This document shows positions 29,530-41,729 of a stretch of DNA of 64,000 nucleotides, in pieces. Source of the stretch: Ignavibacteriae bacterium HGW-Ignavibacteriae-2. Its GTDB lineage: Bacteria > Bacteroidota > Ignavibacteria > Ignavibacteriales > Melioribacteraceae. Location: the NCBI GenBank assembly GCA_002839805.1, contig PGYT01000003.1:1-64000 (forward strand), in the 5' to 3' direction. Under the pieces are notes generated by a model that worked only from the letters and a program-made list of their open reading frames with translations, was not told the origin of the DNA and ran no database searches. A program made the position numbers and the translations under genes. Position 1 is the stretch's first letter. Each line of letters starts with the position of its first letter.

Positions 29530-29919
29530 ATGGGTCAGCAACAACTTTTACTTATAGTACTAGGAATAATACTGGTTGCTGTAGCTCTTGTGGTTGGAAT
29601 AAGTTTGTTTAGAGAGAATGCTGTAGATCAAAAGAGACACAATTTAATAAATGAGTGTATTAACTTGGCGGCAATGGCTCAACAATATTTTTTAAAACCA
29701 ACAACTTATGGAGGAGGCGGACAAAGTTTTACTAATTGGCAAATTCCAAACGAATTAAGAACAACTGCAAATGGGTCATACAAAATTATTACTCAAACAG
29801 CTGCTGAAGTAGTTGTTCTTGGAACAGGAAACGAAGTTGTTACCGGAACTGATAGTGTAAAGGTTAAAATTACAATTCCATCTCCACCCAACACTTATTT
29901 GGTTCAACCATTAAATTAA
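29530..29919 (+). CDS. Pilin-like protein with non-canonical N-terminus (copy 1)
   Basis: A 129-residue protein. It begins MGQQQLLLIVLG and continues as one hydrophobic helix to about residue 26, then a small globular beta-rich domain. Aligned to type IV pilins, G2 takes the place of the residue before the prepilin cut, leaving a leader of only two residues, and the usual Glu5 is Leu. It shares with the next gene the block C-x-NL-x-AMAQQYF-x-KP, a GGGG turn and a TTANG-Y segment. Its place ahead of PilC/PilB/PilT/PilMNOP/secretin genes makes it a likely structural subunit. No canonical pilin family is matched confidently by eye. Confidence 0.65.
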   Translation: MGQQQLLLIVLGIILVAVALVVGISLFRENAVDQKRHNLINECINLAAMAQQYFLKPTTYGGGGQSFTNWQIPNELRTTANGSYKIITQTAAEVVVLGTGNEVVTGTDSVKVKITIPSPPNTYLVQPLN

Positions 29920-29979
29920 AATTTTCACTTTATTTTTCTATTAAATAAAATATCTTAAAATCAATTAAAGGAGTTAGTC

Positions 29980-30363
29980 ATGGGTCAACAGCAATTATTA
30001 CTTATCGTATTAGGCGTTATCATTGTTGGTATAGCCGTGGTTGTTGGTATTAACGTATTTACTGCTCAGTCTGAAGAATCATCAAAAGACGCAATTGTAT
30101 CAGACTGTACAAATTTGGGAGCTATGGCTCAACAATATTTCAGAAAACCAGTTGCTATGGGTGGTGGAGGAAACGCATTTACGGGTTGGACAATTCCTGC
30201 TAACTTAGCTACTACAGCTAATGGAACTTATACAGTAACTATTACCGATGCTACAAACATTGTTATTACTGGGACACCACTTGCCGGAACCAATTACACC
30301 TGGACTGTCTCTACTGCCGTTACGCCAACGACCGTAACGTCAACTATAGCGGTTGCAGAATAG
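29980..30363 (+). CDS. Pilin-like protein with non-canonical N-terminus (copy 2, probably major)
   Basis: A 127-residue paralogue of the preceding gene: the same MGQQQLLLIVLG opening, a hydrophobic helix to about residue 27, one cysteine in DCTNLGAMAQQYFRKP, a GGGG turn, and a Thr-rich C-terminal half typical of surface-exposed beta structure. It has an unusually strong Shine-Dalgarno for this window (AAAGGAG) and is followed at once by a terminator, so it may be made in excess over the downstream machinery. The role as main filament subunit is inferred from context. Confidence 0.65.
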   Translation: MGQQQLLLIVLGVIIVGIAVVVGINVFTAQSEESSKDAIVSDCTNLGAMAQQYFRKPVAMGGGGNAFTGWTIPANLATTANGTYTVTITDATNIVITGTPLAGTNYTWTVSTAVTPTTVTSTIAVAE

Positions 30364-30398: not shown

Positions 30399-30437
30399 AA
30401 GGCTGATAATAGGATTTTTCTTTTATCAGCCTTTTTT
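30399..30437 (+). terminator. Strong terminator/attenuator between pilins and assembly genes
   Basis: A perfect 11-bp stem AAGGCTGATAA/TTATCAGCCTT (30399-30409 with 30423-30433) running into TTTTTT. It lies 36 nt after the second pilin and 21 nt before the PilC-like gene, so downstream genes need read-through or their own promoter. Confidence 0.85.
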
Positions 30438-30457
30438 CATTATCAGGTGATAACATT

Positions 30458-31801
30458 ATGGTAGAATTACGATTCAGTGCTCTAAAACCTAATGGACAAA
30501 CAATTACCGGAACGCTTAGCGCCGAATCTTACGGTGAAGGTAAAAAAAAGATTTTAGCTCTGCTCGCGAAAAACCAGTTCAAATTACATTCCATAGACAA
30601 AAAATCTACTTTTATTTATAAAATAAGGCGCGGATCAGACGCTCCTATTAAAGGAGAACAGCGCGCATTTACAAAAGACGAAGTTGTTAAGGCGCTTACT
30701 AAACTCGGTTATCAGGTAATTTCTGTTAATAAATTTCTTTTTGAATGGAACCCTAAACCCCCTCAGCAGGAGATATTGTCGTTTGTAAAAATTAGCGCCG
30801 AGCTGTTGGAACAAAAACTCCCTTACAGCGAAATTATGACTCTTCTTGTTAACGACATCGAAAATAAAACACTTAAAGAGACATTAAAACAAATAAACAA
30901 CGAGTTAAAAAAAGGGGGCGACAGCGAAACAGTTTTCTTACGTTATCAAACTATTTTCGGTAAATTTACCGCATATATGTTAGGATTAGCCGCAAAGAGC
31001 GGTAATATGACCGAAATTTATAGAGCCACGGCCAAGTTTCTTGAAAGGAGAATGCAATTCAAAAAAGATTTACGAAGTGCTTTAATAACTCCTATGATAA
31101 CTATGTTTGTTTTGTTCCTTGCTGTAGTTTTTTATGTTGCGTATATTTTTCCTGAAACAGCTAAATTATTTGTTAAATTTAACATAGAATTACCGCCTAT
31201 GACTGCATTTACTCTTAAGATAAGTGATTTGCTTTTGGATAATGTTTGGCTGTTTACAGCTATGGTCGTAATTCCGATTATCGTATTAATTCGTTTCTTC
31301 AGCACTAAAAATGGGCGATTATTTTTCGATAAGATGATTATGAAAGTTCCTATTATGGGAAGTCTTGTTCATAAAACAAATATTGAAGTCTTTTGCAGAG
31401 TATTTTACACATTGTACAGCGGTTCGGCAGAAAGTATTGAACCAATTAGAATAGCCGCGGAAGCAACGGACAATTCTTATTTTGAAAAACAAATTAAAAA
31501 TATTGCAATCCCCATGATGATTAAAAAAGGGGCGGGAATAACCGAATCTTTTGAAGCCTCGGGTGTTTTTACAGAAACGGCTATCTCCCGATTTCACTCA
31601 GGAGAAGAGACTGGTACTATTAAAAATACCGCTCTTCAGCTCGCAAATTATTACGAAAGCGAGACTGTTTTTAGATTAAAAAACATTATTGAAATGATAC
31701 AAGTAGGAATTGCAATGGTGATAATGATTGTTATGATTCTTTTGACTTTGGTCTCAGCCGAAACGGCGACTGTAAGTCCAAAATCACCATTTATTAAATA
31801 A
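30458..31801 (+). CDS. Type II secretion F / PilC-like inner-membrane platform protein
   Basis: A 447-residue GspF/PilC family protein. It has an N-terminal cytoplasmic extension with two small repeats of a KxxxAL-x-K-x-GYxV type (about 30-110), then two T2SSF domains. Three membrane segments are visible (about 210-232, 262-283 and 410-430). The conserved F-domain phrase LRSALITPMI is present. It would couple the ATPases to pilin assembly at the inner membrane. It is followed 14 bp later by the PilB-like ATPase gene. Confidence 0.88.
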   Translation: MVELRFSALKPNGQTITGTLSAESYGEGKKKILALLAKNQFKLHSIDKKSTFIYKIRRGSDAPIKGEQRAFTKDEVVKALTKLGYQVISVNKFLFEWNPKPPQQEILSFVKISAELLEQKLPYSEIMTLLVNDIENKTLKETLKQINNELKKGGDSETVFLRYQTIFGKFTAYMLGLAAKSGNMTEIYRATAKFLERRMQFKKDLRSALITPMITMFVLFLAVVFYVAYIFPETAKLFVKFNIELPPMTAFTLKISDLLLDNVWLFTAMVVIPIIVLIRFFSTKNGRLFFDKMIMKVPIMGSLVHKTNIEVFCRVFYTLYSGSAESIEPIRIAAEATDNSYFEKQIKNIAIPMMIKKGAGITESFEASGVFTETAISRFHSGEETGTIKNTALQLANYYESETVFRLKNIIEMIQVGIAMVIMIVMILLTLVSAETATVSPKSPFIK

Positions 31802-31815
31802 TTAAAGGCGATTGC

Positions 31816-33603
31816 ATGCTAGATTCTCAATTAGAAATGACCGATAAAATTGGATATTTGTTGCTTAAAAAGGGCATTATCGATACTAAAATATTAGAAG
31901 AGGCTCTTCTAATTAAAAATGAGGATCAGGCGAAATTAAAAAGAAATCTTGCTCAAATACTTGTACAGGAGTTCAATTTTGATCATGATACAATCTTTAG
32001 AGAAGTTTCTGTTCTTTATGCGTTTAAGGAGTTAAATGTAAGCATAAAAGATTTATCCGACGAAAGAATAGAAGAGATAAGAAAACTTATGTCCGCTAAA
32101 GGGGACGAGATTAAACTGATGCTAATTGAACATCATGTTATTCCGTTTCAGTACGACAAGTTCAGAGATAAACTTGTGCTTGCCGCAGTAGATCCTACCG
32201 ACAGGGCTTTAACAAAAATTGCATACACGTTAAATGCGAAAAAATATGAAATAAATTATCTGCGTAAAAGGGATTACGATAAACTCATTCAAATAATTGC
32301 GCCTCCCGAAAATGAATTTCTGAAAATGATAGAAGAGGCAGACGAAGAAATTTCAGTTGAAAGAGACGAAATTTCAGTTGATGAAGAAGAACTGGACGCT
32401 GAAATTAATAAAAGCGCTCTTGTAAATCTTGTTGAAGCGGCTTTAGTTGAAGGAGTGCGTAAAGGTGCCAGCGATATTCATTTTATTCCCAGATCCAACA
32501 AAAAAACAGAAATACATTTTAGAGTAGACGGCAAATTAATGCTCTGGCATACTCAGGATGGTACTTTACCCGAAGCGGTAATGTCTGTTGTTAAGGATAG
32601 AGCGAAAGGATTGGATAGATTCGAAAGGGAAAGAGCCCAGGATGGATTTATACAGAGAGAAATTGATAGACACATTATAAGGTACAGAGTTTCTGTTCTG
32701 CCAATGGTTGGAACTGAACTAAGAAATAAATTTGAATCTATAGTAATACGAATTCTTGATGATAGGAAAGTTATTAAAGATCTTGGTAAACTTGGTTTGG
32801 TAGGATATGCAAGGCAGGCTTTTGAGAAATCAATTAATAAACCACAGGGAATGATAATTTTAACTGGACCTACGGGAAGTGGTAAAAGTACGACTCTTAT
32901 TGCAGCGTTATATCAAGTAATAGACCCGACAAAAAATGTTCTAACAGTTGAAGATCCTGTAGAGTATGTTATTGAAGGAGCGCGTCAGCTCAAAATTGGT
33001 CATAGAATGAATTTTGAACAAGCTATACGAGCAATATTACGACACGATCCTGATATTGTTTTGGTAGGCGAGATGCGCGATAAAGAAACCGCTGAAACTG
33101 CTGTTAAACTAGCAAACACAGGACATTTAACGTTTTCTACACTCCATACTAACGACGCTCCAAGTGCGGTTTCCCGACTTTATAAAATGGGTGTTGAGCC
33201 GTTTCTAATAGCTTATGCCATTAATATAATTGTTGCTCAAAGGCTGATTAGGAAACTATGTGAAAAGTGTAAAAGAAAAATCACTAATATTGATCCTGAA
33301 TTATTAAAAAAAGCAGGACTTGAAGTTGAAGAGTGGAAAAATTATGAAATATACGAATCTGTTGGGTGCGAACTTTGCAACAATTCAGGTTTTAAAGGAA
33401 GAATGGCAATACACGAAGCTTTACTATTTACAAATGAAATTCGAGAAATGATTGTTAGGTCAGGCGCTGAAGTTGACGAGGAAAAAATTCGTAAACAGGC
33501 AAAAAAAGATGGGACTCTTAATCTTAGGGAATCCGGTTTCGAAAAAGTGAAACAAGGTTTAACCACAATTCAGGAAGTTTTGGCAGGTACAGTTGAGGAG
33601 TAG
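31816..33603 (+). CDS. PilB/GspE-family assembly ATPase
   Basis: A 595-residue protein with a MshEN/T2SSE N-terminal domain (about 10-165), a short acidic linker holding a repeated EISV segment, and the ATPase core. Walker A is GPTGSGKST with K357, the Asp box VEDPVEY (E379-D380) is intact, Walker B is DPDIVLVGEMRD, and a His box is present (TLHTNDA). A tetracysteine zinc site (CEKC and CELC) follows, typical of PilB/GspE extension motors. It drives polymerisation of the pilin or pseudopilin. Start ATG 31816 has AAAGG 7 nt upstream. Confidence 0.93.
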   Translation: MLDSQLEMTDKIGYLLLKKGIIDTKILEEALLIKNEDQAKLKRNLAQILVQEFNFDHDTIFREVSVLYAFKELNVSIKDLSDERIEEIRKLMSAKGDEIKLMLIEHHVIPFQYDKFRDKLVLAAVDPTDRALTKIAYTLNAKKYEINYLRKRDYDKLIQIIAPPENEFLKMIEEADEEISVERDEISVDEEELDAEINKSALVNLVEAALVEGVRKGASDIHFIPRSNKKTEIHFRVDGKLMLWHTQDGTLPEAVMSVVKDRAKGLDRFERERAQDGFIQREIDRHIIRYRVSVLPMVGTELRNKFESIVIRILDDRKVIKDLGKLGLVGYARQAFEKSINKPQGMIILTGPTGSGKSTTLIAALYQVIDPTKNVLTVEDPVEYVIEGARQLKIGHRMNFEQAIRAILRHDPDIVLVGEMRDKETAETAVKLANTGHLTFSTLHTNDAPSAVSRLYKMGVEPFLIAYAINIIVAQRLIRKLCEKCKRKITNIDPELLKKAGLEVEEWKNYEIYESVGCELCNNSGFKGRMAIHEALLFTNEIREMIVRSGAEVDEEKIRKQAKKDGTLNLRESGFEKVKQGLTTIQEVLAGTVEE

Positions 33604-33674: not shown

Positions 33675-34901
33675 ATGATTGATAAAGCCAAAGAGATATT
33701 AACTAGATTTACCAGCCAGATTCCTCAAACTATATTAGGGCCGGAAAGGGTTAATTTTGTTGTTGAAAAAATAAAAGATTTGTCTAGCGACGATAAATTG
33801 ATCCTTTTTAAATTGACAAATCATATTCTAACTTTAATGATTGAACGAAATGCCTCCGACGTAGAAATTGGCGGGTATGGTACAAATGGTTATGTGTGGT
33901 TTAGGATTCACGGTGTAAAGAATCGTGTGGAGGATTTGCCGGTTTTAACTACTGACGAAGCTTCAACTTTGATAATAACTTTGTTAAATCAAAATCAACA
34001 CAGGCATTTACTTGTAAGCAGAAATCTGGATTTCAGTTATACATTTTTTCACGAAAAAGTAAAGAAAAATGTACGATTTAGAGCTGACGCATATTTTGAT
34101 CTAGATTCACTCGCTTTAAACATGCGCGCAATTTCAGCAACAACACGTCCTATTGAATCTCTTGAATTTCATCCTAATGCTGTAAAAATGATGAGCCACA
34201 ATTATATCAAATTTGGTTTGTCGTTAGTTACAGGAATTACTGGATCAGGTAAATCCACTACATTGGATTCTATAATTGACATGCACAACAAAGTAGATCC
34301 CTGCCATATTGTCATCATTGCGGCACCAATCGAGTATGTTCATGTATCAAATTCTTCTATAGTTCGACACCGAGAAGTCGGACGTGATGTGCTTTCCTTT
34401 AAAGAAGGTGTAATTCAGGGATTAAGGCAGGATCCGGATATAATTGTCATAGGTGAAATGCGCGATCCTGATACAATTATGGCTGCATTAGAGGTAACAG
34501 ATACCGGTCATAAGGTATTTTCTACACTTCATACCTCATCTGCTACTGAATCTATCGATAGAATTATCGCAGAAGTTAACCCAGTTGAGCAGGAAAGAGT
34601 TCGAAACAGGCTCGCCGATGTGCTTATTACTATAGTTTCGCAAAAATTAGTGCCCAGTACAGACGGTAAAAGAGTGCTAGCCAAAGAAGTTCTGATTGTT
34701 ACCCCCAGCGTAAGAGCAGCTATCAAGAATAATAATACAAGTGAAATTTATATGATGATTGTTCAAGGCGGTCCGCAAGGAATGATTACAATGGAACAAG
34801 ATTTGCTGCGATTATATCAACAAAGGAAAATTACGCAGGAAAATGCCCTTTCTTACGCCAATAATAAAACCAGAATGCTCCAGATTATGAGAGGGGTTTA
34901 A
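33675..34901 (+). CDS. PilT-like ATPase with altered Asp box
   Basis: A 408-residue PilT-family ATPase: Walker A GITGSGKST with K193, Walker B DPDIIVIGEMRD and His box TLHTSSATES are intact, and there is no zinc motif. The Asp box, which in PilT reads IEDPIE, is here IAAPIE: the Glu and Asp are both alanine (A216, A217). The Glu of this box has a catalytic role in related motors, so hydrolysis may be weak or differently organised. The N-terminus is longer than usual PilT by about 50 residues. It may act as a retraction motor, a regulator of PilB or a non-hydrolysing partner. Confidence 0.87.
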   Translation: MIDKAKEILTRFTSQIPQTILGPERVNFVVEKIKDLSSDDKLILFKLTNHILTLMIERNASDVEIGGYGTNGYVWFRIHGVKNRVEDLPVLTTDEASTLIITLLNQNQHRHLLVSRNLDFSYTFFHEKVKKNVRFRADAYFDLDSLALNMRAISATTRPIESLEFHPNAVKMMSHNYIKFGLSLVTGITGSGKSTTLDSIIDMHNKVDPCHIVIIAAPIEYVHVSNSSIVRHREVGRDVLSFKEGVIQGLRQDPDIIVIGEMRDPDTIMAALEVTDTGHKVFSTLHTSSATESIDRIIAEVNPVEQERVRNRLADVLITIVSQKLVPSTDGKRVLAKEVLIVTPSVRAAIKNNNTSEIYMMIVQGGPQGMITMEQDLLRLYQQRKITQENALSYANNKTRMLQIMRGV

Positions 34902-34907
34902 TTTAAA

Positions 34908-36446
34908 ATGAAACCGTTGATAAGTGTATACACAGAAGGCAACGAAACTAAAATTGCTGTTGTTTCCTTGGAAAAGGACTTACCACGTGTTTTAAAAGTT
35001 TTTAGCACTACAATCTCTTCTCCATCTGGATCGCCCGATAAAATTCAAGACCTAGGTATTGATACTTTAGGTGGTGATATAAGTTTTGAAAGTCTTGAAG
35101 ATAATAGCCCAGTTGGGGCCGATACAGACAATTCGGATGTCGGAATACTTTCGAGAGAATTAAACGAATTTAAATTGAGCAGAAGCAGCTTTATTCCCGT
35201 TACTACTGATCCCAGTGTTAACTTCCATGTTTATGAGGGAGAAAAGTTAAAGGATAGGAATAAACAGTTAGATCTGATTATTAAAGATATTGAAAAAACA
35301 AAAGGAATATTTGTTAATAAAGACAGTATTGATTTTGTTGAACTTGATGACAAATCTTATCTCTGCACTTTTTTGGAATCTTCGGTTCCATGTGTAAATA
35401 TTGTAAATCAGTTGGCCGGCTATCACCGAAGAAGATATTATAAAATTGAAACAATAAAAAATGCCGAAATAGCACTTGCCAATTATGTTTCGCGTTCTAC
35501 AAAATTTTTTCCTGAAGATTATACTTTGATAATCCATATCGGAAAAGAATCCAGTAAACTTATTTTTCTTGAAGGACAAAAACTTAAACATATTGGGACA
35601 ACTCTCGATATCGGGACACATAACCTTCACACTTACGATGTATATTTTTCCAAAATTCTACTCGAAATGGAAAACGGTGGAATTCCAAGGCTGGATAATG
35701 TTGTACTATGCGGTGATGATCGATCAGAGAATCTTGTTTTGTCGTTCTATGGTACTTTTCCGGAAGCGAACGTTGTTGAGCTTAAATTTGAAAACTTCGA
35801 TGTTTCCCAGCTAAAGCAAGATGTGTTGGAGAATTTATCCTCTTTTTCAATTCCAATTGCGGCTGCCTACGAATTTATTCGCGAAAAGGAAGATAATATT
35901 CAGGGGATCAATATACTGCCGAAGTATATTCTGGATAACCAAAAATTTCTTCAATTTGGCTGGCATAGTTATCTGATGCTTGCTCTTTTATTTGTTGCCA
36001 CTTTTTTTGTTACGTTTATGGTATTGAAAAATTTTAGTACAATTAGCAAGCATGATGCGGAAATAGCGAGATTAGAAGCTTTACAAAAAAAGAATGAGGA
36101 AATAATAAATCAAATAGCGCCGTTAACAAATAGGATAGCTAATTTCGATAATACACAAGCTATTTTGGATTCTGCAACGGTCGGAACAGAAATTTGGGGA
36201 ACAACTATTGAGAAAATTTCCAATTTTGTTGAAAGGAGAAGAAATTTCTGGATAACTCATTTGGAAACAACACAAAATAATGAAATTTTACTTAAGGGAT
36301 TTTCATTATCGCGCAGTTCGTTAACTGAATTTGCCCGCGATAATGATGCTTCTATTATAAATAATGTTCTGTATGAACCATTGAGAGAAAAAAACGCTTT
36401 TTCTTTTTCTATCAATATTTTTCACGCCAATAATCCGAATAAATAA
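34908..36446 (+). CDS. PilM-PilN fusion (GspL-like) inner-membrane assembly protein
   Basis: A 512-residue protein joining two normally separate functions. Residues about 1-335 look like the actin-like cytoplasmic PilM fold (LIIHIGKESSKLIF, DNVVLCGDD). The segment INILPKYILDNQKF (about 335-350) matches the PilN start, followed by one membrane segment (about 352-375), a coiled coil and a small periplasmic ferredoxin-like domain (about 420-510). The layout resembles GspL of type II secretion. It begins 7 bp after the PilT-like gene; its stop overlaps the start of the next gene by 1 nt (TAATG). Confidence 0.78.
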   Translation: MKPLISVYTEGNETKIAVVSLEKDLPRVLKVFSTTISSPSGSPDKIQDLGIDTLGGDISFESLEDNSPVGADTDNSDVGILSRELNEFKLSRSSFIPVTTDPSVNFHVYEGEKLKDRNKQLDLIIKDIEKTKGIFVNKDSIDFVELDDKSYLCTFLESSVPCVNIVNQLAGYHRRRYYKIETIKNAEIALANYVSRSTKFFPEDYTLIIHIGKESSKLIFLEGQKLKHIGTTLDIGTHNLHTYDVYFSKILLEMENGGIPRLDNVVLCGDDRSENLVLSFYGTFPEANVVELKFENFDVSQLKQDVLENLSSFSIPIAAAYEFIREKEDNIQGINILPKYILDNQKFLQFGWHSYLMLALLFVATFFVTFMVLKNFSTISKHDAEIARLEALQKKNEEIINQIAPLTNRIANFDNTQAILDSATVGTEIWGTTIEKISNFVERRRNFWITHLETTQNNEILLKGFSLSRSSLTEFARDNDASIINNVLYEPLREKNAFSFSINIFHANNPNK

Positions 36447-37333
36447 TGGATAGAAAACTAAAAAATACCATTGCCCTTATTATAATTTTTGTGCTTATAC
36501 TCGGTGCGGGCGGCATTTTTATTTTCGTTTATCAAAAAGGAAAAATTGATAAAAAAGAAAAACAAATTAATGATTTGAGTATCAATTCGGTGGATACTGA
36601 AAAATTAATGGAACAACTAAACATGCTAAAAAAAAGAGTCGCTGAGCTCGATTCTATTTTGGCATTGCGCAAATATAATATACCTTCAAATTTAGATCAG
36701 TCCAGTCTTTATGATTTTGTGAACAGAATATCTTTCTCTTTCGATCCAAAATCTTTTGTAAATATAGAATACATTGAAATTGGTAAGGACCCGAACTTCT
36801 ATTATTATAAATATAACATAACAGGGACGGCTTATTTTAACGAATTGTTTTACCTAATTTACGCTATTGAACAAAGCCGAGAACTAAAAAAAGTTACGGA
36901 CTGTAGTATAGATAATATTGTAAGTGTGGATGACGATGGAGTAGCTGGTTATAAGGTTTCTTTTAAACTGATGCTTCAAATATATTTTTCCGATTCCGAT
37001 CGATTTACTTCTTCCGCGATGGTGGAAAATAATTTAAAACCAAATGCTTTGTACGATGTATTTTATCCCCTAATACGCAATGAAATACCGCCGAATATTG
37101 ATAATTTGCCAGACGTGCAGTCTGCCCAACTTTTAGCTCTAATACCGGATGGAGCATTTATTGCGGATTCTCGAGGCAATACATATCTGCTCTGGGAAGG
37201 TGATAAAGTTTATTTAGGATACTTGACTGAAATTGATTATCAAAAGAACGAAGTGCATTTTATCCTGAATAAAGGCGGTATAATAGAGAAAGTTAAACTA
37301 ACTCTTGAAAAAGAAAAAAAATCGAGTGAATAA
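36446..37333 (+). CDS. PilO-PilP-like fusion assembly protein
   Basis: A 295-residue protein: a short cytoplasmic tail, one membrane segment (about 9-30), a coiled coil (about 33-68) and a PilO-like periplasmic domain (about 75-185). The C-terminal part (about 225-290: ALIPDGAFIADSRGNTYLLW then KVYLGYLTEI) resembles the beta domain of PilP that touches the secretin. Both similarities are by pattern, with low sequence conservation in these families. It would link the inner platform to the secretin. It is translationally coupled to the PilM-PilN gene. Confidence 0.7.
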   Translation: MDRKLKNTIALIIIFVLILGAGGIFIFVYQKGKIDKKEKQINDLSINSVDTEKLMEQLNMLKKRVAELDSILALRKYNIPSNLDQSSLYDFVNRISFSFDPKSFVNIEYIEIGKDPNFYYYKYNITGTAYFNELFYLIYAIEQSRELKKVTDCSIDNIVSVDDDGVAGYKVSFKLMLQIYFSDSDRFTSSAMVENNLKPNALYDVFYPLIRNEIPPNIDNLPDVQSAQLLALIPDGAFIADSRGNTYLLWEGDKVYLGYLTEIDYQKNEVHFILNKGGIIEKVKLTLEKEKKSSE

Positions 37334-37334
37334 A

Positions 37335-38585
37335 ATGAAAAAGGTATTTTTAATAATCTTTACTTTAACCAGCATGTTAACTCTTTTTGCGCAGAAAAAC
37401 TTGCAGGAAAAGTTGAGTGGTTATGTTAATCCTGAAGAAATTGTAACTCTTTCTGAAAATATACCTTTTGCGCAGGCAGTTGAAGTATTGAGCCAAGTGA
37501 GTGTTAAACTTACCGGAAAAACAATTGTTTCAACAGCTTCAGTTAATGAACCCATCGGAATTCAAATTGATAAAATGCCTTACAAAAGAGTTTTGAATAT
37601 TATTACTCAAATGAAGAATTTGGTTTACGATGAACAGGAAAGCGCTATAATTATAAAAAGTCCGGCTACATCAAACTCAAATCTTAAAGAAGATATTTAT
37701 GCTTCAGTTGAATCGCGTGAAGTTGAAATTTCAGCAATATTTTTTGAAGCTAATACAAGAGATTCGCGTGAACAGGGAATAAACTGGGATTATCTGCTTT
37801 CTCAAGCGGGATTATCTTTTGGTCCGAAATTGAAAACTTTTATGAGTGCTGCCGATCAACAACAACAATCGCAGGGAGCAACAGGTCAGGTGGTTGAAAC
37901 ACCTGATTTTACAATAGAGAATAAGACAGAATTTGATTTGGGAAGTTTTAAAGGCAACGCAACTGCAGCTTTTAAGTTTTTTGAAAATCAGAATCTTGGA
38001 GAAATTATTGCAAGGCCTTCTATTTCGGTAAGAAATAAAATGAAAGGAAGAATACAAATAGGAGAGGACATTTCTATAAAGGAAAGAGATTTTTCGGGAA
38101 ATTTAATCGACAAGTTCTTTTCAACTGGAACCATAATTGAAGTTACGCCTTACATTTACACCGAGGATGGAATAAATTATATATTACTTAAACTGATGGT
38201 TGAGCGAAGCAGCGGCACTCCAGGACAAATTAGCACCACAATTCAAAAAACTAATGCTACTACTGAAGTCCTGATGCTTGACGGCGAAGAAACAATAATC
38301 GGTGGTTTATTTGTTAACAACGAAGTTTCTGAAAGACGTGGAATTCCTTTTCTTAAAGATTTGCCATGGTGGGTTTTTGGTATTCGGTACCTAACAGGTT
38401 ACAATAGTGAGACTTTGGAAAAAAGGGAAATAATAATACTAATAAAAACAAATATTCTTCCCACACTTAAAGAAAGGATTGAACTGAAGAAAAATGAAAA
38501 TTTGATTAGAAAAACTATTGAAGAAACAGAGAAGGAAATTGAATCCCATAAATCGAATACAATGAAGAAAGAGAAAGAAGAATAA
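37335..38585 (+). CDS. Compact secretin (GspD/PilQ family)
   Basis: About 416 residues with a signal peptide (MKKVFLIIFTLTSMLTLFA). A single N-terminal STN/N-type domain (about 40-110) is followed by the secretin core (about 125-375), with VEISAIFFEANTRDS, GTIIEVTPYI and DGEETIIGGLFVNNEVSERRGIPFLKDLPW. The tail is Lys/Glu-rich. It is much shorter than PilQ or GspD (usually over 600), lacking repeated N domains and an AMIN domain. ATG 37335 is preferred over TTG 37305 because it gives a clean signal peptide. It forms the outer-membrane pore for the filament. Confidence 0.88.
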   Translation: MKKVFLIIFTLTSMLTLFAQKNLQEKLSGYVNPEEIVTLSENIPFAQAVEVLSQVSVKLTGKTIVSTASVNEPIGIQIDKMPYKRVLNIITQMKNLVYDEQESAIIIKSPATSNSNLKEDIYASVESREVEISAIFFEANTRDSREQGINWDYLLSQAGLSFGPKLKTFMSAADQQQQSQGATGQVVETPDFTIENKTEFDLGSFKGNATAAFKFFENQNLGEIIARPSISVRNKMKGRIQIGEDISIKERDFSGNLIDKFFSTGTIIEVTPYIYTEDGINYILLKLMVERSSGTPGQISTTIQKTNATTEVLMLDGEETIIGGLFVNNEVSERRGIPFLKDLPWWVFGIRYLTGYNSETLEKREIIILIKTNILPTLKERIELKKNENLIRKTIEETEKEIESHKSNTMKKEKEE

Positions 38586-38587
38586 TA

Positions 38588-38962
38588 ATGCACTCGATTC
38601 TAATAGTCGATGATGATATAAATCTTTGTACTGTATTATCCGAAGAATTAAACGAAATCGGGTTTAATGCAACAGCAGTAAATTCGGCCGACAAGGCTAT
38701 CAGTTTTATAGAAAATAATCAATTAGATTTAATTTTATTAGATCTGAAAATGCCAGAGAAGGACGGTTTTTATGTTTTAAACTCTTTAAAAGAAATGGGG
38801 ATAAAAGTTAAAGTAATTGTTCTAACCGCTTATGCCGACGTCCAGAGTGCAATAGATTCGGCAAAATTAGGTGCGAACAATTTTATCAGTAAACCTTATG
38901 ATCTAGATGATTTAATAATTACTGTCCGGAAAGTTTTACAAACAGAAGACAATGAAAATTAA
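38588..38962 (+). CDS. Single-domain response regulator (CheY-like)
   Basis: A 124-residue receiver domain without output domain. The acidic pocket is D8-D9-D10, the phospho-acceptor is D52 (LLDLKMPEKDG), with T in VLTAY and K in SKPYD. It starts 2 nt after the secretin stop and overlaps the following kinase by 11 bp, so it appears to be part of the pilus operon. It may pass a signal to the PilB or PilT motors or act in a relay with the hybrid kinase. Confidence 0.9.
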   Translation: MHSILIVDDDINLCTVLSEELNEIGFNATAVNSADKAISFIENNQLDLILLDLKMPEKDGFYVLNSLKEMGIKVKVIVLTAYADVQSAIDSAKLGANNFISKPYDLDDLIITVRKVLQTEDNEN

Positions 38963-41729
38963 TGTTCGTATTACTCTCATCACTTTTCTTGTTGTAGTAA
39001 TCGTTTCAGGAGTATCTTCCTTAGTATATTATTCCACTACAAATGCAATCCTAGAATCCAGAAACACTAAAAATATTATTAATAGCACCAACGATTTTGT
39101 TTTTTTTCTGGAATCCAGTATCGATAAAACCAATGAAGATTTTCAGAAGTATTACCTAAATAAAAACAAAATAGAACCTATTAATATAGACAGTACAAGT
39201 GTTGATTTAATTTTTTCTATAGGTGAAGAAAATCAGGTAAAAATTATTGCAATTAAAACAGGGATAATAATAAACAGACGTTTTAATACTTTTAAGGATT
39301 TTGTAGACGATAACCCGCACTTGATTGTACAATTCTTTAAGAATTGGGAAGGCGCCACAATTTATTACGCTATAGTTATCGATGAAAAATTTCTTAATGA
39401 AGCTTCAAAAAAAATTAGAGCCGATGTAGCTCTTATGATAGACAATTTGCCCTATAATTACTCGAATTCAAATGAAAACAGCAATTATGTGGCAAACATG
39501 ATAAATTCACAAAATAAGCTGAAATATTTAAATAATTTCGATATTATAAATTCTTCCACCAGCGGGGCCGATTTTGTTGCAGTAAAATATCAGCCTAAAA
39601 ACATTTTAACATCTACATCCAAATTTAGTTTTTTAGTTTTCTCGCTTTATTCAGAGTTGTATTATTTTACTGATACAATGAAAATTATAATTCCAGTAAT
39701 AATATTGACCGGAATTGTACTGGCAATGATATTTGCTCTTGTTTTTACAGCAAAATTCAGAAAACAAATTTCCCTATTAACCGAAGCCACTACAATTAAT
39801 CGCCAGGGGAATCTGGATTATCATGTCCCGATCATTTCTAAAGACGAAATAGGAAATTTAGGCGTTACATTCAATCAAATGATTTCTGAAATTAACAACA
39901 AAGAAAAACTGGAAAAACAATATGCCGAATTTATTGTTATACTTAACCAGAACATTACTTTGAAAGATTTATCACATTCGGTTCTAGTAAAAATTCTGGA
40001 ATCAGTTAATTTTAAATTTGGTGCCATCTATTTGCAACAGGAAGACGATTTGAGTGTACTCTGCAGCATCGGGCTGGATAAGAATTACAATGTTGATATT
40101 GAAAACACCGGACTGTACAAAAGCGTAATTGAACAACGTGAATCCGTTGAAATGAAATTTGAAGAAAATATGCCAGTTATTCGCAGCGCAATTCTTGAAA
40201 TTGAAATAAGGTATTTGGTTATTGTACCGATAATTTTCGGCGACAAATTTTTAGGACTTATTGAATTAGTAAGTGAAACAATTCCAATTATTTCACCAAG
40301 AGAGTTTTTGGAGAAAATTAAAGAACAATTGGCAATAGGGTTGAACAATTCGTTATCATATCAGAAACTTTCTAAACTTGTTGATGAACTGAAACAATTG
40401 AATGAGGAATATCATAAACAAAACATACAAATTAGTGGACATAACGAGGAACTTGTTAAGCTGCACTCACAATTGAAAGAAAAGGCTTCAGAACTGGAAG
40501 AGGAAAAAAGAAAAGCTGTTGAATTATCTCACGTTAAGTCGCAGTTTCTGGCAAGTATGTCGCACGAATTAAAAACTCCTCTCAATTCTATTATTGGATT
40601 AAGTGAACTAACTGAAAAAGATCCAGCATCTCTTCAAAAAACTAAAGATCGAGTAAAAATTGTATTAAGAAACAGCAAAAAACTGCTCGGGATGATTAAC
40701 AATATTTTAGAGTTTTCAAAAATTGAAGCTGGGAAATACGATGTAAATAAACAAAACTTTTTGCCCTCCGAATTTTTAACAGAAATATATTTAAGTTCCG
40801 AAATTTTATTTAGCGAGAAACAACTGCCGTTTACAATTAAAATTAACAGTTCAAAAAATCTACTTCTTAATACGGATAAAACTAAAGTCGAACACATTCT
40901 ACTTAATTTGATCAGTAACGCTGCTAAATTTACAGATATTGGTTCTGTGACTATGAATGTCGAAAAAGTAGATGCCAGGGATGTTAAGTTTAGTATTATT
41001 GATACGGGAATTGGAATTTCTGAAACTAATCAACAGAAAATTTTCAATGAATTTAGCCAAGTTGAATCGGGAAATAGCAGAAAATACAGTGGGGCGGGTT
41101 TAGGATTGGCTATCTGCGCAAGATATGCTGAAATATTAAACGCTTCTATTGGCGTAAATAGTTTAGAGGGAGTAGGCTCAACATTTACGTTGCTAATTAG
41201 TGAGGCAATATCTGAAGAAATACCATTTCACAACGAAAAAGAATTTTTGATATCTTCTGATAGAAAAAATAAAAAAATTAACACTCCCGATTCATTACTA
41301 ACAGTAAATCAATCTTTAATTCCCGACGAAAGTTCGAAAACTCTTTTGCCCCAGATCTTATTAGTAGACGATGATAAAGATACTTTATATACAGTAGGTG
41401 AAATTCTTACCAATCTTGGTTACAATCTGCATTATGCAAACAACGGGATAGAATGTTTGGCTAAGTTGGAAGAAATTAAGCCTGATTTAATTCTGCTTGA
41501 TATTATGATGCCAGAAATGGACGGTTTTGAGACTATAAAAAAAATAAGAGCCAGCGAATCTTTAAAATATCTTAAAGTATTCGCTTTAACCGCTCACGCA
41601 ATGCTTGATGATAAACATATTATTGAACAAACCGGCTTTGATGATTTAATAACAAAACCGGTTGAAAATACAACAATTCAATTAAAAGTTAAACAAGCCA
41701 TTATCAATAACAATAGAAAACCAGTATGA
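38952..41729 (+). CDS. Membrane hybrid sensor histidine kinase with C-terminal receiver
   Basis: A 925-residue protein. The order is: membrane segment (about 8-28), periplasmic sensor (about 30-240), membrane segment (about 242-268), HAMP (about 270-320), GAF-like domain (about 330-465), coiled coil (about 470-530), HisKA with H538 (MSHELKTPLN), HATPase (N, DTGIGI and GAGLGLAI boxes), and a receiver with D850 (LLDIMMPEMDG). It overlaps the genes on both sides (11 bp and 4 bp). The stimulus is unknown; position suggests pilus or surface signalling. Confidence 0.92.
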   Translation: MKINVRITLITFLVVVIVSGVSSLVYYSTTNAILESRNTKNIINSTNDFVFFLESSIDKTNEDFQKYYLNKNKIEPINIDSTSVDLIFSIGEENQVKIIAIKTGIIINRRFNTFKDFVDDNPHLIVQFFKNWEGATIYYAIVIDEKFLNEASKKIRADVALMIDNLPYNYSNSNENSNYVANMINSQNKLKYLNNFDIINSSTSGADFVAVKYQPKNILTSTSKFSFLVFSLYSELYYFTDTMKIIIPVIILTGIVLAMIFALVFTAKFRKQISLLTEATTINRQGNLDYHVPIISKDEIGNLGVTFNQMISEINNKEKLEKQYAEFIVILNQNITLKDLSHSVLVKILESVNFKFGAIYLQQEDDLSVLCSIGLDKNYNVDIENTGLYKSVIEQRESVEMKFEENMPVIRSAILEIEIRYLVIVPIIFGDKFLGLIELVSETIPIISPREFLEKIKEQLAIGLNNSLSYQKLSKLVDELKQLNEEYHKQNIQISGHNEELVKLHSQLKEKASELEEEKRKAVELSHVKSQFLASMSHELKTPLNSIIGLSELTEKDPASLQKTKDRVKIVLRNSKKLLGMINNILEFSKIEAGKYDVNKQNFLPSEFLTEIYLSSEILFSEKQLPFTIKINSSKNLLLNTDKTKVEHILLNLISNAAKFTDIGSVTMNVEKVDARDVKFSIIDTGIGISETNQQKIFNEFSQVESGNSRKYSGAGLGLAICARYAEILNASIGVNSLEGVGSTFTLLISEAISEEIPFHNEKEFLISSDRKNKKINTPDSLLTVNQSLIPDESSKTLLPQILLVDDDKDTLYTVGEILTNLGYNLHYANNGIECLAKLEEIKPDLILLDIMMPEMDGFETIKKIRASESLKYLKVFALTAHAMLDDKHIIEQTGFDDLITKPVENTTIQLKVKQAIINNNRKPV

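Follow-up and report, generated by a model that had tools for sequence, protein, structure and literature searches.

Putative leaderless type IV pilin-like subunits encoded beside a pilus assembly operon in Ignavibacteria and other Bacteroidota

The DNA under study is a window of 64,000 nucleotides, comprising positions 1 to 64,000 of the forward strand of contig PGYT01000003.1 of Ignavibacteriae bacterium HGW-Ignavibacteriae-2 (assembly GCA_002839805.1), in which two paralogous genes at 29530-30363 encode small pilin-like proteins directly upstream of a set of pilus assembly genes. With a probability of about 0.8, the two products are the structural subunits of a type IV pilus-like filament formed without the use of a prepilin peptidase. 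Reviews take the class III signal peptide as the defining feature of type IV pilins and list the peptidase among the core components (PMC4471445); leader cleavage by this dedicated enzyme is regarded as a universal trait of type IV filaments, and surveys rely on profiles built on the leader. By such a definition the two proteins are not type IV pilins, whereas, to judge from fold, gene context and machine, they most likely function as such pilins do. The original prediction, made from the sequence of the window, proposed a distinct pilin class that is either unprocessed or loses only its initiator methionine; this proposal is supported by the lack of an upstream start, the lack of a match to a known family and the preserved link with PilC and PilB.

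Both open reading frames (ORFs) are found on the forward strand where they had been predicted, and they have their first 12 residues, MGQQQLLLIVLG, in common. ORF1 (29530-29919, 129 amino acids (aa), beginning MGQQQLLLIVLGIILV...) is the distal paralogue of the pair with respect to the assembly genes, and ORF2 (29980-30363, 127 aa) is the proximal one and probably the major subunit. The nearest in-frame stop codon lies 6 codons upstream of the ATG in ORF1 and 8 codons upstream in ORF2. No ATG, GTG or TTG occurs between this stop and the ATG in either gene, and a longer leader is therefore impossible for both. A Shine-Dalgarno-like AAGGAG (29968-29973, forward strand) is located 6 nt upstream of the ATG of ORF2. 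The ORFs are genuine, and their N-termini do not result from an annotation error.

The same start is observed across the family. Relatives of ORF2 are present in 52 of the 58 genomes that represent its genus, family and order, and 124 members were compared, consisting of 81 distinct sequences from these three ranks and 43 from other Bacteroidota families. Their N-terminus, M-[G/A]-Q-Q-Q-L-L-L, is nearly constant: Met1 occurs in all 124 members, Gly2 in 122 (Ala2 in 2), Gln4 in 118, Gln5 in 123 and leucine at positions 6-8 in 115-118. In all 81 distinct members the start codon occupies the identical place (70 ATG, 6 TTG and 5 GTG) and residue 5 is Gln; 49 of them carry GGAG or AGGA at a distance of 4-18 nt upstream of this start, whereas a control window placed still further upstream has it in 0 of 81. 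The 43 members from other families, which represent about 20 genera and many of which show less than 40% overall identity, all carry ATG at the same position, and to judge from the sequences this retention is more than chance. A possible upstream start is ruled out in 116 of the 124 members, so that a longer leader gained in this way is rejected by in-frame stops both in the window ORFs and in most of the family. A further 138 members with the same start come from named records, including the isolate Stygiobacter electus and genomes titled Melioribacter roseus; their loci were located via the N-terminal motif itself and do not constitute independent evidence for it.

Structure prediction with AlphaFold and the family alignment gives, for ORF2, one helix spanning residues 2-55 (54 residues) followed by a four-stranded sheet, with a predicted local distance difference test score (pLDDT) of 92.4. 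For a distant member (pLDDT 93.3), a single helix over residues 2-55 is likewise followed by an antiparallel sheet. The predicted architecture, an extended N-terminal helix and an antiparallel beta sheet, is that of a type IV pilin. In Foldseek comparisons with the PDB, the top match of the ORF2 model is the minor type IV pilin PilX (probability 0.90, E 0.18) and that of the distant member is the minor type IV pilin PilV (probability 0.92, E 0.045), neither being significant alone; PilE is also among the top seven matches.

The ungapped comparison of the helix with classical pilins yields one clear optimum, at a register of +3, against both GspG-like and PilE/PpdD-type sequences. In this register the classical Phe1 corresponds to Gln4 and Glu5 to Leu8, and only Met-Gly-Gln precedes mature position 1. 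The leader of Met-Gly proposed originally is consequently one residue off, whereas the proposed replacement of Glu5 by Leu stands, since the aligned position is still Leu (in 115 of the 124 members, and not acidic in any residue listed). Register 0, in which Met1 would match Phe1 and Gln5 would match Glu5, is attractive by eye and was rejected because it scores clearly below +3. A class III leader is a hydrophilic segment of 6-26 residues ending in Gly; here, the helix is preceded by no more than 2-3 residues. Regarding the motifs noted in the two window proteins, the GGGG turn is real, with G62 and G63 invariant among 77 relatives, while the Cys of C-x-NL-x-AMAQQYF occurs in only about a quarter of the syntenic members and was discarded as a family motif.

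The helix also bears on a very improbable alternative, in which the N-terminus serves as a class I signal peptide that signal peptidase I removes by cleavage past the helix, near A29-x-A31, leaving a secreted or periplasmic product for use by the machine. A-x-A-like residues do stand just past the hydrophobic stretch in some members (FTASA, FRANA), but they are lost in distant ones (FSENQKK). Furthermore, a positive n-region is missing, positions 2 to 24 being free of charged residues in 120 of the 124 members, the hydrophobic stretch covers about 22 residues, and the predicted helix runs unbroken to residue 55 with a pLDDT above 90.

The association of the subunits with a pilus machine is readily apparent from the distribution of the genes. 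The subunit genes stand directly upstream of PilC, PilB, PilT and the following assembly genes at nearly all loci read, and likewise in most of the distant families. Among 197 genomes sampled from the class, the subunit family is found in 106 and the PilC domain in 106; both occur together in 103, each occurs alone in 3 and neither occurs in 88 (Fisher p 4e-48). Across the whole phylum, 129 of 396 sampled genomes carry the subunit family, and 128 of these 129 also carry PilC. The possibility, raised with the original prediction, that the link with PilB and PilC genes would not be conserved in relatives is thus at variance with these counts. In the PilB and PilC trees, the copies from leaderless loci separate from the peptidase-linked copies, among which loci L235 and L236 were counted, on single 100/100 branches.

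In the window, the pair is followed, as had been described, by an ordered set of genes on the forward strand. The first encodes a PilC-like inner-membrane platform protein of a dedicated lineage (30458-31801, 447 aa; Pfam T2SSF 1.7e-28, with matches to the NCBIfam PilC/GspF models below their curated cut-offs), and the second a PilB-like assembly ATPase (31816-33603, 595 aa; Pfam T2SSE 1.2e-103, NCBIfam type_IV_pilB 7.9e-127, below cut-off, and PilB structures 9e-89). Next comes the retraction ATPase PilT (33675-34901, 408 aa), which exceeds the pilT_fam cut-off of NCBIfam (321.0 versus 319.1 bits) and matches PilT in the PDB at 1.7e-62. The product of 34908-36446 (512 aa) is probably a PilM-PilN-like fusion, as suggested by its position and by faint matches to the NCBIfam Amuc_1101 PilM-like family (4.4e-06, below cut-off) and to PilN in the PDB (0.053). 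The product of 36446-37333 (295 aa), for which no informative family match was obtained, is a candidate PilO by its position, which is conserved in relatives. A PilQ-like outer-membrane secretin (37305-38585, 426 aa; Pfam Secretin 9.7e-23, NCBIfam IV_pilus_PilQ 1.5e-29, below cut-off) completes the set. PilB, PilC, PilT and PilQ, the components by which a type IVa machine is recognized, are therefore encoded together, in the window and by synteny in relatives.

A terminator-like hairpin with a T run, AAGGCTGATAA...TTATCAGCCTTTTTT (30399-30441, forward strand), separates the second pilin-like gene from pilC. It was not reported by a generic scanner with a loop limit of 8. Similar hairpins, scoring 7 or more, occur between the last pilin-like gene and pilC at 20 of 22 syntenic loci. 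Such an arrangement would be expected for a subunit that is needed in larger numbers than its machine, and the hairpin probably keeps expression of the subunits above that of the assembly proteins.

Several observations weigh against a role as filament subunits. Neither by sequence nor by fold was a statistically significant match to known pilins obtained, the best Foldseek E value being 0.045; profile-profile comparison with nine classical pilins detected no homology, a PDB sequence search returned no match, and none of the models of known pilin families exceeds its cut-off for the two window proteins. As to membrane topology, the uncharged segment of residues 2-24 offers nothing obvious to hold the N-terminus inside. 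Both the filament and its mature N-terminus are, moreover, deduced here from genes and a predicted fold. The weak fold matches and this dependence on gene content and prediction would also suit membrane accessory proteins of the machine, PilP/PilN-like or regulatory, with the true pilin encoded elsewhere in the genome. This reading is nevertheless given little credence: no classical N_methyl pilin was detected in the window genome even at E 10, the predicted fold is pilin-like, and the genes occur in tandem and as dispersed copies, as those of pilins often do, with the tandem pair upstream of the machine and the hairpin in between.

The absence of a prepilin peptidase gene, noted for the window, extends to the whole genome. 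The window genome is a 4.16 Mb draft of 99.92% completeness, and no Peptidase_A24 (PF01478) was found in it, while 12 of 14 control genomes were positive. A24 is likewise detected in only 8 of the 197 genomes of the class sample, and it was not found in 114 of the 129 subunit carriers of the phylum sample. Because the peptidases of Bacteroidetes type II secretion systems (T2SS) can be divergent (PMC5553014), a divergent-A24 profile was built from 15 sequences in which both catalytic Asp residues are conserved. This profile recovered the peptidase in all five T2SS genomes missed by PF01478, whereas on 18 carriers of leaderless subunits, including the window genome and several closed genomes, it gave a best E value of 0.4 and no peptidase. 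The search for a PilD/GspO-type enzyme suggested with the original prediction is accordingly negative with both profiles. A peptidase too divergent for PF01478 is rejected by this broader search of the 18 carriers, and its loss in an assembly gap is rejected because closed single-contig carriers are also negative.

In the A24-positive carriers that were examined, the peptidase gene stands beside a second PilB/PilC set and classical pilins of the G|FSLTELMV type (pattern G|F-S-[LM]-x-E-L-M), and the occurrence of A24 in some carriers is explained by this second, classical system. Some genomes of the Ignavibacteria group contain both the leaderless system and a classical one of this kind, the latter with an A24 gene of its own (L079, L080, L235 and similar loci).

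We infer from the missing substrate site and the missing enzyme that the subunits would not be processed. An alternative considered improbable is that they are pilins whose short Met-Gly(-Gln) leader is cut by a non-A24 peptidase of a family not yet known, so that maturation is replaced and not lost. Gly2 is almost invariant, like Gly-1 of classical prepilins, and conservation is higher over the first five residues than over most of the protein, which would fit a recognition site; the same constancy is, however, expected if these residues belong to the filament. A leader of 2-3 residues would also be far below the known range of 6-26 (PMC4471445), and no unassigned peptidase-like gene was found in the conserved operon.

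In the preferred reading, that of subunits made without leader cleavage, the protein would be translated directly in near-mature form, with Met1-Gly2-Gln3 placed where the classical leader ends and the hydrophobic helix beginning at once. Met1 would probably be removed by methionine aminopeptidase, which Gly2 or Ala2 always permits. The uncharged helix would enter the inner membrane with the C-terminal domain outside, PilC and PilB would extract and stack the subunits, PilT would retract them, and the filament would exit via PilQ. In classical pilins, the free, methylated N-terminus and Glu5 align neighbouring subunits. Here, an uncharged and nearly invariant glutamine cap formed by Q3-Q4-Q5 may replace this pairing. 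A wider proposition, held with somewhat less assurance and still regarded as probable, is that these loci represent type IV pilus machines of an old, separate Bacteroidota lineage, with subunits that are mature as soon as they are made, without leader, prepilin peptidase, the N-methylation that it performs or Glu5. In such machines, assembly would be controlled otherwise than by leader cleavage and the glutamine cap would take the place of the charge pair. It appears that many Bacteroidota make type IV pili of subunits lacking a cleavable leader, and most of these bacteria are without a peptidase gene.

The family was compared with the closest known systems. Type IVa pilins (PilA/PilE/PpdD) share the long N-terminal helix and antiparallel sheet predicted here, the single best register of +3 and the adjoining PilB, PilC, PilT and PilQ homologues; unlike them, the present proteins lack a class III leader, a Gly-1/Phe1 site, Glu5, a peptidase in the genome and a significant sequence match. 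The T2SS pseudopilin GspG, including that of the Cytophaga systems of Bacteroidetes, also aligns best at +3 and is encoded with an ATPase and a platform protein. The Cytophaga-type loci, however, encode a divergent A24 and a classical GspG (PMC5553014), while the window operon contains PilT and PilB/PilC of a separate lineage in a genome without an N_methyl protein. Archaeal pilins with non-canonical class III signals often lack Glu5 as well (PMC4471445), but retain a cleavable leader and an A24-type peptidase. MSH pilus loci resemble the present ones in having no peptidase gene, yet their genomes always possess one from another system (PMC6668835, a survey of type IV filaments), in contrast to the whole genomes without a detectable peptidase described here. 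For Melioribacter roseus, of the same bacterial family, the genome paper reported pilT, pilQ, pilB and pilC, did not find pilA and pilD, and concluded that a complete set was probably not present (Kadnikov et al. 2013, PMC3534657). Genomes titled M. roseus (L148, L152, L165) carry the pair followed by pilC, pilB and pilT, and the leaderless family, not recognized in that paper, would be the missing pilin of such gene sets. No description of leaderless or unprocessed pilins, of the motif MGQQQ or of this class was found in the literature searched, most subscription journals lying outside the search.

If the preferred reading is true, a textbook rule about a very common machine would be broken: cleavage, N-methylation and Glu5 would not be intrinsic needs of polymerization driven by PilB and PilC, and the step that they serve would become testable. 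It would also explain pilus motors without a pilin in genomes such as that of Melioribacter roseus, imply that many Bacteroidota escape pilus surveys relying on N_methyl and PilD models, and name a likely filament protein for electroactive or particle-attached Ignavibacteria and their relatives.

In most relatives the operon ends, as in the window, with a single-domain response regulator (38588-38962, forward strand; NCBIfam receiver-domain matches and synteny) and a large histidine kinase (38952-41729, forward strand; ORF and synteny), which suggests dedicated control of this pilus. The distal and proximal subunit copies belong to two old lineages whose order is preserved, with 2 label changes in a 96-row tree. 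At locus L009 (G046 C1:3073813-3074152), in a closed genome, the distal gene is broken by several stops and the proximal one is intact, suggesting that the distal copy can be lost. A third, dispersed copy stands alone (G000 contig C113:295-699, locus L059; L070:5259-5663) beside an aminodeoxychorismate synthase-like gene and a major facilitator superfamily transporter; the same neighbours in G007 indicate that it is conserved in place, and its C-terminal stretch contains Cys. Family members also appear in two records titled Deltaproteobacteria (L132, L192), which are possibly mislabelled metagenome-assembled genomes or cases of transfer. Finally, a 384-aa lipoprotein-like protein (L069:4260-5412, G037 C31) contains two matches to the globular part of the family and lacks the N-terminal helix; the head domain of the pilin may here be employed in soluble or anchored form.
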